DNA of 10,379 nt from Patescibacteria group bacterium (GTDB lineage Bacteria; Patescibacteriota; JAHJAL01): contig JAHJAL010000143.1 of assembly GCA_018814055.1 (NCBI GenBank), positions 1 to 10,379 on the forward strand, given 5' to 3'. The notes under the pieces were generated by a model. The model was given only the letters and a program-made list of their open reading frames with translations. It was not told the origin of the DNA and did not search any database. The position numbers and the translations under genes are program-made. Of this stretch, positions 5,959 through 10,379 are shown piece by piece (the stretch's first letter is position 1; each line of letters opens with the position of its first letter).

Positions 5959-7989
5959 ATGGGTATCAAAATTTCCGATTTGGCCAAGAAGTTGGGTATG
6001 GAGGTAAAACTACTGCGACAAAAGGTGCAGGAGCTTCATTTGGGTGTTTCTAAGAAGGCGAATGTATTCAAGGATGAGCTGGCCGTGGAGATTGAAAGGA
6101 GATTATCAGATAAAGACAGTAAACAAAATGAGACCCCAAAGGAAGTAATTGAAGCAAAAGTTGAGCTTGTAAGTGATGAAGAAGATAAAACGGTCAAGAA
6201 AGAGGATGAAAAAGAGCCGGTAGATTTACCGAAGATTGAGATTCCCAAAATGATAACGGTGGGAGAGCTTGCATCCAACATGGATATTGGTGTATCGGAG
6301 GTGATAAAGGAATTGATGAAGAATGGGGTATTGGCCAATATTAATGAACATATTGATTTTGATACGGCGGCCATTATTGGTGAGGATTTGGGGTATGAGG
6401 TGGTATTGTGTGAGCAGGAAGGAGATAGTGAGGAGTGCTTGATTGATAAAGAGGAATACGCGCAGAAAGATTTGGTGAAGAGGGCCCCGATTGTGACGGT
6501 GATGGGACATGTTGATCATGGTAAAACATCAATATTGGATAAAATTAGAAAGTCGGATATTGCACTTTCAGAGTCGGGAGGAATAACCCAGCATATCGGA
6601 GCATACAAAGTAAAGAGGGGGAAGAAATACATTACTTTTTTGGATACTCCCGGCCACAAGGCTTTTTCGGCTATGAGGGCACACGGAGCAAAATTGACTG
6701 ATATAGCTGTGTTGGTAGTGGCGGCTGATGATGGCGTGAAGCCCCAAACGATTGAGGCCATTAACCATGCCAGGGCTGCCAGTGTGCCAATTATTGTAGC
6801 TTTGAATAAAATCGATCGGCCGGAGGCAAATGTCGATAAAGTCAAAAAGGAGCTGGCAGATTATAATTTGATGTCAGAGGAGTGGGGGGGAAATACGATA
6901 ATCGTAGAGACTTCGGCGAAGACCGGTGCCGGAATTGATGAATTGTTGGAGATGATTTTATTGCTGGCGGATATGGAAGATTTGAAGGCATACAAAGATG
7001 GGCCGGCACAAGGCGTGGTGATTGAAGCGCATTTAAGTAAGCGGGTGGGGCCGGTGGCAACGGTTATGATTACGCAGGGTTGTTTGCGAGTAAGAGACAG
7101 TATCGTGATAGGCATAACAGATGGGGTGGTAAGGGCGATGGTAGATCATCGGGGTGAACGACTTACCAAAGCTTATCCGGCTGATCCGGTTAGGTTGGCG
7201 GGTTTGAGCGAAGTTCCGGAATTTGGGGATACTTTGTTGAAGGTAGCTAATTCAAAAGAAGCCAAAACTTTGGTAGCTTCGAGAAAGAAAAAAATATCTT
7301 CAAAAGGATTTAAGCCCAAATCAATTGGGATGGCTGAGTTGTCTCAGGCGGTGCGGGAGGGGAAGATTAGGGAGTTGCCGGTTATTTTGAAGGCTGACGT
7401 TCAGGGTTCGTTGGAAGCAATCAAGAGTTCTTTGGACAATATCAAAAATGAAGAGGTAAAGGTCAATATTTTGCATGAAGCGCCGGGGTCAGTCAATGAG
7501 TCGGATGTGATGATGGCGGCATCGTCACACGCACTAATATTGGCGTTTCGTTCAAAGATTGAGCCCAATGCGTTGAAAATTGCCAAAAAATTGGGGGTAA
7601 ATATTTCGACGTATGATGTCGTTTATCGTCTATTGGATGATGTGACAGCTGCATTGGAAGGGTTGCTGCAGCCGGAAGTTATGGATGTCAAAATTGGCAA
7701 AGGCAGGTTACTGAGGATTTTTACGCGTGGAAGGAAGTATCGAATAGTCGGAGTAGGTGTGATTTCCGGGTATGTAGAGAAGGGGGCGAAAGCAGTAGTT
7801 TATCGAGAAAACGAGAAAGTTGGTGAAGGAGTAGTTGAGGGAGTAAAAAAGGGTAATGAGAACGTAGCAAAAGTACAGGAAAAGAATGAGTGTGGGATGG
7901 GCTTGACGGGAGATTTTAAAGTGGAAGAGGGTGACGTGTTGGAGTTTTGGCAGCAGGAGACAAAAATGCGGAAATTGAGTCGGGATTAG
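5959..7989 (+). CDS. infB: Translation initiation factor IF-2
   Basis: IF2 is the GTPase that brings initiator fMet-tRNA to the 30S subunit and promotes 50S joining. The 676 residues make a compact IF2 (E. coli has 890). Residues 1-50 form an IF2_N module ([19 protein letters not shown]). A charged linker of about 45 residues follows, then a second IF2_N-like module at about 97-148 ([22 protein letters not shown]). The G domain starts near 176: G1 GHVDHGKT (183-190), switch [14 protein letters not shown]3 DTPGH with catalytic H233, G4 NKID (283-286), G5 SAK (319-321). Domain II ([19 protein letters not shown]), domain III (about 470-565, [15 protein letters not shown]) and the fMet-tRNA-binding domain IV ([21 protein letters not shown]) follow in order. 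All G motifs are intact. The start matches the IF2_N start and has a nearby AGG. The usual partners nusA, rbfA and truB are not adjacent; it follows gyrA instead. It ends in TAG, 69 nt before the next gene; that gap shows no convincing promoter or terminator. Confidence 0.97.
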
Positions 7990-8058: not shown

Positions 8059-10299
8059 ATGGACAATATTTGGGTATCGTTGGATGTTGAAACAACCGGA
8101 TTGGATCCGATCAAAGACAAGATCATTGAAGTGGCTTTGATTAAATATCGCAATGAAGAGATGATAGATAAATATATTTCTTTGATAGATATAGGCAGCC
8201 AGTTGCCAAGCAATATTTCTCAATTAACGGGTATTTCTGATGATGACCTAAAAAAAGGTCAGAAGTGGGAAGTGGTGCTCGAGGATATATATCGATTTAT
8301 GACTGATGTTGATATGGTGATAGGACACAATGTAGAATTTGACAAAAGTTTTTTACAAGCCTCTGGTTTGGACTTTGGAAAAAGGAGGATTTTGGATTCA
8401 TGGTATTTGGCCACATTGTTTGTTTGGGATTTGGGTTCATATTCTCTGGGAAATGTTTGTTGTGCCATTGGATATGAATTGAAGGGGCATCGGGCGGAAA
8501 ATGATGCTTTAGCAGTTACTCAGGTGTATTTATATATAAAGAAGGCGATAAAAAAAGTTTCGGATAAGTTGTTGGGTAGAATATGTCAATTGGTTGAAAA
8601 AACTGATTGGGAGTACAAATATATATTCATTGATGAGTTTAGGGAACGGCGCAAAGAAAATATTCGGGTAAAAAGGGGAAGATACTTTCCCAGGACGCGA
8701 TGTCGAGATATTGGCCAGGAATATAATTATGCAAATGAAGAGTATGAAGGTGGATTGACGATACTGGAAAGTGATTTGAAGTCAGTTTTGCATCAGGGAG
8801 GCTGTCAGGATAATGTTTTGATTGTTTCGAAAGTTGTGTTCAATTTTTTACGGAAGAAAATGGGTAGATGTATATATGTAGACCAAAGAGATAAGTATCT
8901 ATGTCGGCAGAGATTCAAAGAATTTATAGGCCGAGGTAGGATACCAAAAAGTGATATAGGGGTGATAGTGAGGATTTACTTGGTAATTGATCGAGGTTTT
9001 TGGGATGGTTACTTGGAGGATTTAAATTTGTCCAGAAATGAAAGACAGGTGTTGGATAGGTTGCAGTGCGGGAAAACGGTTAGATGCAAACAAGATTGTT
9101 TTTTTCAAAAAAAGCTGGATAGTATAAGAAATGATAATTGTAGAGCTGTTATGAGTTTTGGAGCTTGGAAAGAGGAGGTTGACTGGAAAATAAGGAAGAT
9201 TAATTTTTGGGTGGATGATGTATTACTGGAGGATGGAATAAGTAACATCACCGTGGAAGAATATGGATTTACCAAAGGCCGAGAGATCTTGGTAGAATGC
9301 GCAAGATGTTTTCAGGATAAAAATATATATAAGAATATTGTTAAGCGACTGGATATTGTTGGGCAAATGATTGGTTTGTTGATCAAGTCTCAAGGTGTAA
9401 GCCGGGGACGGGAAATTGACTTGGGTATGACTCCGGCCGTGTTGGCTAATTTTGCGGTGGAGGATATTCGTATGAGATTGGGGGGGGTTATTACTGAATT
9501 AGCAGCCAATGATAAAGGAGAATGTGGCGTTTGTGATAATAATTTGAAGAAGTTGGTAAATCTGACAAGGGCGATTGAAGAAAAGAGTAATAAAGTAGTA
9601 AAGTTGAATCTGAATTTAAGAAATAGAAAAGTTACTATAAGAGTTTTTTTGAAAAATTTTATTGATTTAATTGAAAATATTGGAGACAGAAGCGATCAAT
9701 GCAAGTTGGCCGCAAGAGTAATTCAATCTGGCAAAAAGTATTATGCGGATTGTTTATTTGGTAAAACGGGTGTGATAATGAAGAGAGGACTTGGTGACGC
9801 TTTGGGAGTTGAAAAGTTGTATGCATATTCCATCTCAAAAGTGATTAACCGGTTGAAAGAATACAAAAAAAGCATGTTAATCTTGGCGGATAATAAAATA
9901 TTATATGATGTTCAGAGAAATCATGATGATCAAAATGTATGTTGTTTAACATCCAACAGATTGAGAGGTAATCGTGGTGCATTGATAGAGAAGGGAATAA
10001 TAGCGGTAACAATGAGAAATGTGGCAGAATTATCGGTAGTCAGCCAGGGCTATGACTGTATTTATTTGCAAAGGTTGCCCTTTGATGTACCGGGTGAATT
10101 ATTGACAAGTAGTCGATCAATGTATTACGAGGATGATCATTTTGAGGAGTATTTTGTACAAAGGATGGTAATTAGGGTAAAATTTGTCTTGAGTTTGCTT
10201 GGCAATTCAGGTATTTTATTGGTTGGTGATACCAGGTGGGATGATAAGAAATATTCAGAAAAATTAAATACTTTATTTGTAAAGGAAAGTATTCTTTGA
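8059..10299 (+). CDS. DEDDh 3'-5' exonuclease fused to a degenerate DinG-type (XPD-like) helicase region
   Basis: Residues 1-165 form a DnaQ/RNase T-type exonuclease with the full DEDDh set: D9 and E11 (SLDVETTGLDP), D95 (GHNVEFDKSF), H144 and D149 (GHRAENDA). Such domains remove nucleotides from DNA or RNA 3' ends using two metal ions. The remaining 580 residues follow the order of exonuclease-DinG helicases: EYEGGLTILESDL resembles the region before Walker A; DKYLCRQRF, then DLNLSRNE, then a C337/C343/C347 cluster ending CFFQKKLD resembles the Fe-S domain; QRLPFDVPGELL, HFEEYFVQRMVIRVK and LLVGDTRWDDKKYSEKL resemble the DinG C-terminus. However, no GTGKS Walker A exists, the DEAH position reads VDDV (385-388), and the motif VI glycine-arginine element is replaced by hydrophobic residues around 707-714. 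The helicase half is therefore probably not an ATPase. It has 20 cysteines, including CxxC pairs at 414/417 and 489/492. DinG homology is inferred by eye. The ATG start directly precedes the exonuclease fold. The der-like gene starts 8 nt after its TGA. A role in DNA repair or processing is likely; the substrate is unknown. Confidence 0.8.
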   Translation: MDNIWVSLDVETTGLDPIKDKIIEVALIKYRNEEMIDKYISLIDIGSQLPSNISQLTGISDDDLKKGQKWEVVLEDIYRFMTDVDMVIGHNVEFDKSFLQASGLDFGKRRILDSWYLATLFVWDLGSYSLGNVCCAIGYELKGHRAENDALAVTQVYLYIKKAIKKVSDKLLGRICQLVEKTDWEYKYIFIDEFRERRKENIRVKRGRYFPRTRCRDIGQEYNYANEEYEGGLTILESDLKSVLHQGGCQDNVLIVSKVVFNFLRKKMGRCIYVDQRDKYLCRQRFKEFIGRGRIPKSDIGVIVRIYLVIDRGFWDGYLEDLNLSRNERQVLDRLQCGKTVRCKQDCFFQKKLDSIRNDNCRAVMSFGAWKEEVDWKIRKINFWVDDVLLEDGISNITVEEYGFTKGREILVECARCFQDKNIYKNIVKRLDIVGQMIGLLIKSQGVSRGREIDLGMTPAVLANFAVEDIRMRLGGVITELAANDKGECGVCDNNLKKLVNLTRAIEEKSNKVVKLNLNLRNRKVTIRVFLKNFIDLIENIGDRSDQCKLAARVIQSGKKYYADCLFGKTGVIMKRGLGDALGVEKLYAYSISKVINRLKEYKKSMLILADNKILYDVQRNHDDQNVCCLTSNRLRGNRGALIEKGIIAVTMRNVAELSVVSQGYDCIYLQRLPFDVPGELLTSSRSMYYEDDHFEEYFVQRMVIRVKFVLSLLGNSGILLVGDTRWDDKKYSEKLNTLFVKESIL

Positions 10300-10307: not shown

Positions 10308-10379
10308 ATGAACAAGAAAGATAAAAAATTACCGGTAGTGGCGATAGTGGGTAGAACGAATGTAGGAAAGTCGACGTTA
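10308..10379 (+). CDS. der: Probable ribosome-assembly GTPase Der (EngA), N-terminal 24 codons only
   Basis: Only 24 codons lie in the window: a lysine-rich start (MNKKDKKL) followed by PVVAIVGRTNVGKSTL, a TRAFAC-class G1/P-loop (GxxxxGKS). A P-loop starting within about 15 residues of the N-terminus with the form VVAIVGRxNVGKSTL is typical of Der/EngA, the double-GTPase needed for 50S maturation. The usual residue after GR is Pro; here it is Thr. Era and other Era-like GTPases share the same opening, and without the second G domain the assignment is provisional. The start has a good Shine-Dalgarno 4 nt upstream and lies 8 nt after the preceding gene, so co-transcription is likely. The 3' end is cut by the window edge. 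Confidence 0.65.
   Translation, partial: MNKKDKKLPVVAIVGRTNVGKSTL

Follow-up and report, generated by a model that had tools for sequence, protein, structure and literature searches.

In Staphylococcus aureus (PDB 8zef and 9ii8), Bacillus subtilis, and Listeria monocytogenes, DinG is an ExoDinG, in which an exonuclease domain precedes a DinG module, whereas Escherichia coli DinG (6fwr and 6fws) and archaeal XPD (5h8w and 2vsf) are ATP-driven helicases without such an exonuclease. An earlier study, cited by both PMC12345164 and PMC11981726, had described S. aureus DinG as a nuclease without helicase activity, a view revised by PMC12345164, which reports that the protein unwinds DNA. PMC11981726 divides DinG-like proteins, drawn from 125 of the 192 bacterial orders in KEGG, into ten subgroups; the word Patescibacteria is absent from its main text. 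The same source describes sDinG from three cyanobacterial orders, which is DinG-like, has an incomplete ATP site, and is a suspected nonclassical helicase; it is predicted to consist of motor domains 1 and 2 (MD1 and MD2) and the Arch domain only, with neither an exonuclease nor an iron-sulfur (FeS) domain. Here, we analyzed a 10,379-nucleotide stretch of DNA from a Patescibacteria group bacterium (assembly GCA_018814055.1, contig JAHJAL010000143.1; referred to as the window), which encodes an ExoDinG-like protein of 746 amino acids (aa) at positions 8059 to 10299 (+ strand, as for all parts of the protein given below). It shares the domain order of the ExoDinGs and differs from sDinG in having an exonuclease. 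In contrast to S. aureus DinG, which keeps the P loop, DEAH, and QGxGRxIR, all three motifs are gone. No account of a motif-erased Patescibacteria ExoDinG family was found in the literature searched, from which subscription papers were mostly absent.

The window protein is probably an ExoDinG in which the ATP motor has been lost and the helicase-shaped remnant acts as a passive clamp on single-stranded nucleic acid, feeding 3' ends to the exonuclease. The basis of this reading is the combination of intact catalytic residues, a DinG/XPD fold, loss of motifs I, II, V, and VI, retained MD2 contacts, many relatives of the same kind, and purifying selection in two related clades.

Exonuclease domain and helicase-shaped part

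The frame is open over 746 codons with no internal stop, in agreement with an earlier note on this DNA, which had been made from the sequence alone and had argued against a fresh pseudogene. Its coordinates (8722 to 10299) gave the correct end but covered only the C-terminal part (residues 222 to 746); the gene starts at 8059. The exonuclease, of the DEDDh (RNase_T) type, occupies residues 6 to 157 (8074 to 8529; PF00929, E = 9.8e-23) and is the sole Pfam domain recognized in the protein. Its catalytic set D9, E11, D95, H144, and D149, already named in the note, is complete, invariant across a 30-row family alignment, and present in 87 of the 88 rows of a larger one, the exception (L133) being a frame that starts past the exonuclease. 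Among NCBIfam models, TIGR01407 (dinG_rel) ranked first, with two matched stretches and 113.5 bits, which is below its curated cutoff of 547.7. A basic stretch just past the exonuclease (residues 194 to 208, FRERRKENIRVKRGR; 8638 to 8682), a place where the relative P0002 is basic too, is a possible extra nucleic acid contact.

Beyond residue 165, the predicted structure matches DinG/XPD, also when the model was built from motif-less sequences only, and the full-length model matches the fold of S. aureus DinG; these comparisons were made on whole predicted models rather than subdomain by subdomain (MD1, FeS, Arch, MD2). Alignment of the C-terminal parts of the window protein and P0002 with 10 intact DinGs by hhalign gave a probability of 98.7 (E = 3.5e-16; 461 columns). 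The relation to DinG/XPD proposed previously for residues 170 to 746 is thus borne out, and the landmarks LPFDVP, FEEYF, and GDTR each align with the corresponding DinG segment.

The 88-row alignment confirmed the absence of the three helicase motifs listed in the note. The window protein has a gap across the Walker A columns, VDDV (residues 385 to 388; 9211 to 9222) stands in place of DEAH (motif II), and VKFVLSLLG (residues 707 to 715; 10177 to 10203; KFVLSLLG in the aligned column) stands in place of QGxGRxIR (motif VI), with neither motif VI arginine present. Neither Walker A nor DEAH was found elsewhere in the window protein by pattern search or at the aligned columns, and a hidden Walker A was dropped as an explanation. 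Among 70 motif-erased proteins of the family, Walker A is found in 0, DE-H/Q in 0, and Q..GR in 1, and the motif V residues are present in no more than 23.

Four cysteines of the window protein (C282, C337, C343, and C347; span, 8902 to 9099) align with FeS-domain positions of intact DinGs. Under the rule of PMC11981726, by which three or four cysteines at these positions can hold a cluster, the window copy with four and P0002 with three would be classed as FeS-type DinGs, and an Fe-S cluster may also be present in the window copy. Three cysteines are also present in the f31 clade, the f79 clade, and L136; the remaining erased rows mostly have one cysteine or none. Of the suggested Fe-S scaffold, the cysteines of the window copy therefore stand; it is not a general explanation, because many erased clades lack them.

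Family, gene order, and selection

The closest relative of the window protein, P0002 (754 aa), shares 28% identity with it across 98% of the length, is collinear, and likewise has no motor motifs. Its public name is "PolC-type DNA polymerase III," with the exonuclease as its only precomputed Pfam domain; this name is likely a misannotation. A profile search of 380 genomes, presumably of Patescibacteria, gave a match in 217, although the profile was built mainly from erased sequences and hence favors erased proteins. About 78 of these genomes contain a nearly full-length protein (a hand count that contig breaks make inexact), and in most others only the exonuclease matches. A view less biased toward erased sequences comes from the helicase C domain PF13307, which was over the cutoff in 24 of 145 relatives, strongly (E below 1e-25) in three, and was not found in the window genome, which is 82% complete. 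Searches with the C-terminal part were nearly empty, the divergence within the family being too great for word-based methods: a homolog search returned the window itself only, and a profile search yielded four rows, namely, the window and three proteins carrying Pfam helicase domains. An initial scan of the genome contigs with P0002 returned no relative.

The 88-row alignment, in which a few rows are near-copies, comprises 79 Patescibacteria loci and nine further proteins (P series) and contains 11 intact, 7 partly eroded, and 70 erased rows; the 79 loci alone comprise 6 intact, 7 partly eroded, and 66 erased. Motif loss with retention of DEDDh is therefore common to 70 of 88 aligned proteins, which is at odds with a single copy that is simply decaying and supports the idea of a distinct family of nuclease with a helicase-derived platform, whose independence of ATP is inferred. 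One erased clade consists mainly of Candidatus Doudnabacteria, and by pattern check eight Gracilibacteria loci (L161, L163, L164, L166, L167, L169, L174, and L193) also have no motifs. Outside the phylum, all three motifs (DEGH taken as DEAH) occur in nine complete ExoDinGs picked by similarity, eight of Chloroflexi type and one from Desulfosporosinus (L165, L168, L171, L173, L175, L179, L182, L183, and L184). Five outside loci with truncated, split, or extended frames (L170, L177, L181, L200, and L212), some motifs being present, were not counted. Among the intact proteins P0003 to P0006 and P0016, P0006 is named Anaerolineae.

The partly eroded proteins (L031, L032, L037, L040, L042, L043, and L044) could reveal the order of motif loss: GVGRY occurs with DEAQ in L040 and L042, and GNGKY with CEAH in L037. 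Nine of the 88 distinct family frames were left out of the alignment: six (L061, L063, and L065 to L068) with no visible DinG landmarks in the C-terminal part, two (L069 and L070) of ∼475 aa, and L138 with a weak score. The C-terminal part of the first six (680 to 723 aa) aligned with the erased family at an hhalign probability of 90.8 (E = 1.2e-6) versus 10.6 with intact DinGs. Possibly, they represent a further eroded stage that is linked to intact DinG only via erased intermediates.

In a full-length tree with the motif columns removed and seven rows left out, one branch (SH-aLRT, 92) splits intact rows from erased and partial rows; six of the seven partial rows group adjoining the rest, and long branches were flagged. 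A tree from the exonuclease columns (five rows left out) was unresolved, with 7 changes of the intact/lost label, so that a single origin of the loss, neither shown nor excluded by it, rests on the full-length tree. Gene order ties the three states together: carA lies one or two genes upstream of two intact loci (L101 and L104), one partial locus (L037), and six erased ones, and pnp occurs no more than three genes upstream of four partial loci (L031, L032, L043, and L044) and two intact ones (L050 and L060) (neighbors were named by Pfam on one or two cluster members and the remainder by BLAST clustering). Omega of the remnant (NG86) was 0.035 to 0.131 in nine erased pairs, 0.063 in a partial pair, and 0.085 in an intact pair; one additional erased pair was saturated. 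The erased part is under purifying selection in two clades related to that of the window, all pairs lying outside the window's own clade, which speaks against mere decay.

Counterparts of single-stranded DNA contacts and alternative explanations

PMC12345164 reports five MD2 contacts of S. aureus DinG with single-stranded DNA (ssDNA), K801, F804, F823, R858, and Y864, and states that alanine mutants at all five lack helicase activity and that K801A, F804A, and F823A bind DNA more than twofold worse. With residue numbering checked against the PDB sequence, the counterparts in the window protein are R672 and F675 within RLPF (residues 672 to 675; 10072 to 10083), F695 (10141 to 10143), and R726 and Y732 (span, 10234 to 10254), with K to R at the first. 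Like residues are kept in 45, 68, 67, 68, and 64 of the 70 erased proteins, in the order K801 to Y864; all five occur in 41 proteins, four in 26, and only one in 3. K801, often replaced by arginine, was set aside; among 90 helicase-part columns conserved in intact rows, the other four contacts take ranks 3, 5, 6, and 9 for retention, and all four thus lie in the top nine (hypergeometric probability, 4.9e-5). The top ranks also hold residues with no known contact role (a D and two P).

Several observations weigh against a clamp without a motor. VDDV in the window protein still has two acidic residues, and the column of the DEAH glutamate is acidic in 45 of the 70 erased rows (38 D and 7 E), the window included. 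The comparison covers the contacts of MD2, and the conserved helicase-part columns are mostly lost (median retention, 0.16 over the 90 columns), so that the grip on nucleic acid may be partial. The K801 column is K or R in only the 45 proteins mentioned, and three proteins (L053, L125, and L135) hold only one contact; the retained residues could also be structural. The rank statistic is post hoc, having been picked after the data were seen. The nine erased pairs, which overlap in members, represent two family-level clades (f50 and f63), the window's clade not being among them; several have a dS near or above 2, and the closest relative of the window copy shares just 28% identity with it.

Alternatively, the C-terminal part could be a docking platform for protein partners (RecA, SSB, ribosomal, or replisome) or a purely structural scaffold, its contact residues being kept for fold stability. 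Consistent with this, 13 of 67 loci (erased L053, L057, L059, L062, L064, L102, L124 to L127, L129, L131, and L135) have a recA-cluster gene on the same strand no more than three genes upstream, and in 10 of these it is immediately upstream; one member of the cluster was confirmed as RecA by Pfam. B. subtilis DinG is reported to bind RecA (PMC12525004), and conserved columns outside the MD2 contacts are mostly lost. However, retention is concentrated at positions contacting ssDNA in S. aureus DinG, no recA adjoins the window copy, and no RecA exceeded the Pfam cutoff in the window genome (82% complete). We regard such a role as unlikely. The recA-cluster gene is itself often preceded by a gene for an HTH_25 protein (11 loci) and ftsK (9 loci).

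It is still less probable that the protein is a replicative proofreading exonuclease of the DnaQ/PolC type whose remnant is just a polymerase anchor. The closest solved sequence to residues 3 to 166 is indeed the exonuclease domain of a PolC-type DNA polymerase III (2p1j), PolC exonuclease models score nearly as high as dinG_rel, P0002 bears the PolC-type name, and no other RNase_T-domain match was found in the window genome. That genome is only 82% complete, however, and several family genomes, e.g., G026, G101, G154, G194, and G214, have an additional, separate DEDDh match within a frame of ∼200 residues. Moreover, in contrast to PolC, the window protein has no polymerase match by Pfam, and residues 166 to 746 are predicted to be DinG/XPD-like. 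A noncanonical nucleotide site that still powers the helicase module appears very improbable: the two acidic residues in VDDV and the motif pieces of L037, L040, and L042 are in its favor, but in the window copy the Walker A columns are empty and both motif VI arginines are missing. Finally, recent decay or an assembly artifact of one copy is hardly credible, in spite of a fragmented assembly (173 contigs) and a lower G+C content over the gene than upstream, as the 746 open codons, the collinear homolog P0002, the 70 erased rows, and the purifying selection in related clades contradict it; fresh-pseudogene and frameshift readings were dropped.

Gene neighborhood, proposed mechanism, and implications

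In the window, the + strand carries gyrB, gyrA, infB, and then the ExoDinG-like gene. infB (translation initiation factor IF-2; 5959 to 7989; Pfam IF-2 and IF2_N) ends 69 bp upstream, and 8 bp downstream another + strand gene begins with P-loop GTPase-like residues (10308 to 10379, read from the DNA), cut by the window end, which we take to be Der-like. An open reading frame with a truncated start and a DUF4012 match (1 to 1200) lies upstream of gyrB. Neighborhoods vary by clade, with ybbR and DAC-domain genes at seven of 67 loci; they may point to a role in repair or in RNA/ribosome processes, favoring neither.

In the clamp reading, the protein is a DnaQ-type DEDDh exonuclease fused to a DinG/XPD helicase module that no longer has its ATP motor. 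The remnant would bind single-stranded substrate and deliver 3' ends to the exonuclease, which may digest ssDNA or single-stranded RNA 3' to 5' without ATP. By analogy to Firmicutes ExoDinGs, its role might be repair or replication-stress cleanup or RNA quality control; Listeria DinG is reported to target unprocessed rRNA (PMC12774634). B. subtilis DinG with a Walker A substitution (K290A) reportedly still degrades ssDNA 3' to 5' (PMC12525004), and Listeria DinG with a DEAH substitution (E465A) keeps prominent exonuclease activity (PMC12774634); therefore, an ExoDinG nuclease need not have a working ATPase. By comparison with these mutants, the Patescibacteria proteins look like an ATPase-mutant state fixed by evolution, with the module retained as a clamp.

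We see roughly even chances for a broader scenario in which the ancestral Patescibacteria ExoDinG lost its motor once, early, and stepwise. Its descendants across many families would then form a distinct class of ATP-independent exonucleases with a pseudohelicase holding single strands; the Fe-S site of the window clade may confer redox sensitivity, and the six proteins without DinG landmarks may end the series. For a large, mostly uncultured group with tiny genomes, the family would correct an annotation, as the closest relative of the window protein is now named a PolC-type DNA polymerase III. It is also a natural experiment on the use of a helicase module to a nuclease once ATP is gone, in which ATPase residues vanished and ssDNA contacts stayed, and its intact, half-eroded, and erased orthologs offer ready material for asking if a DinG module serves chiefly to clamp the substrate. 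With so many relatives of the same design, the inactive motor seems to be a useful handle instead of the mark of a gene in decay.
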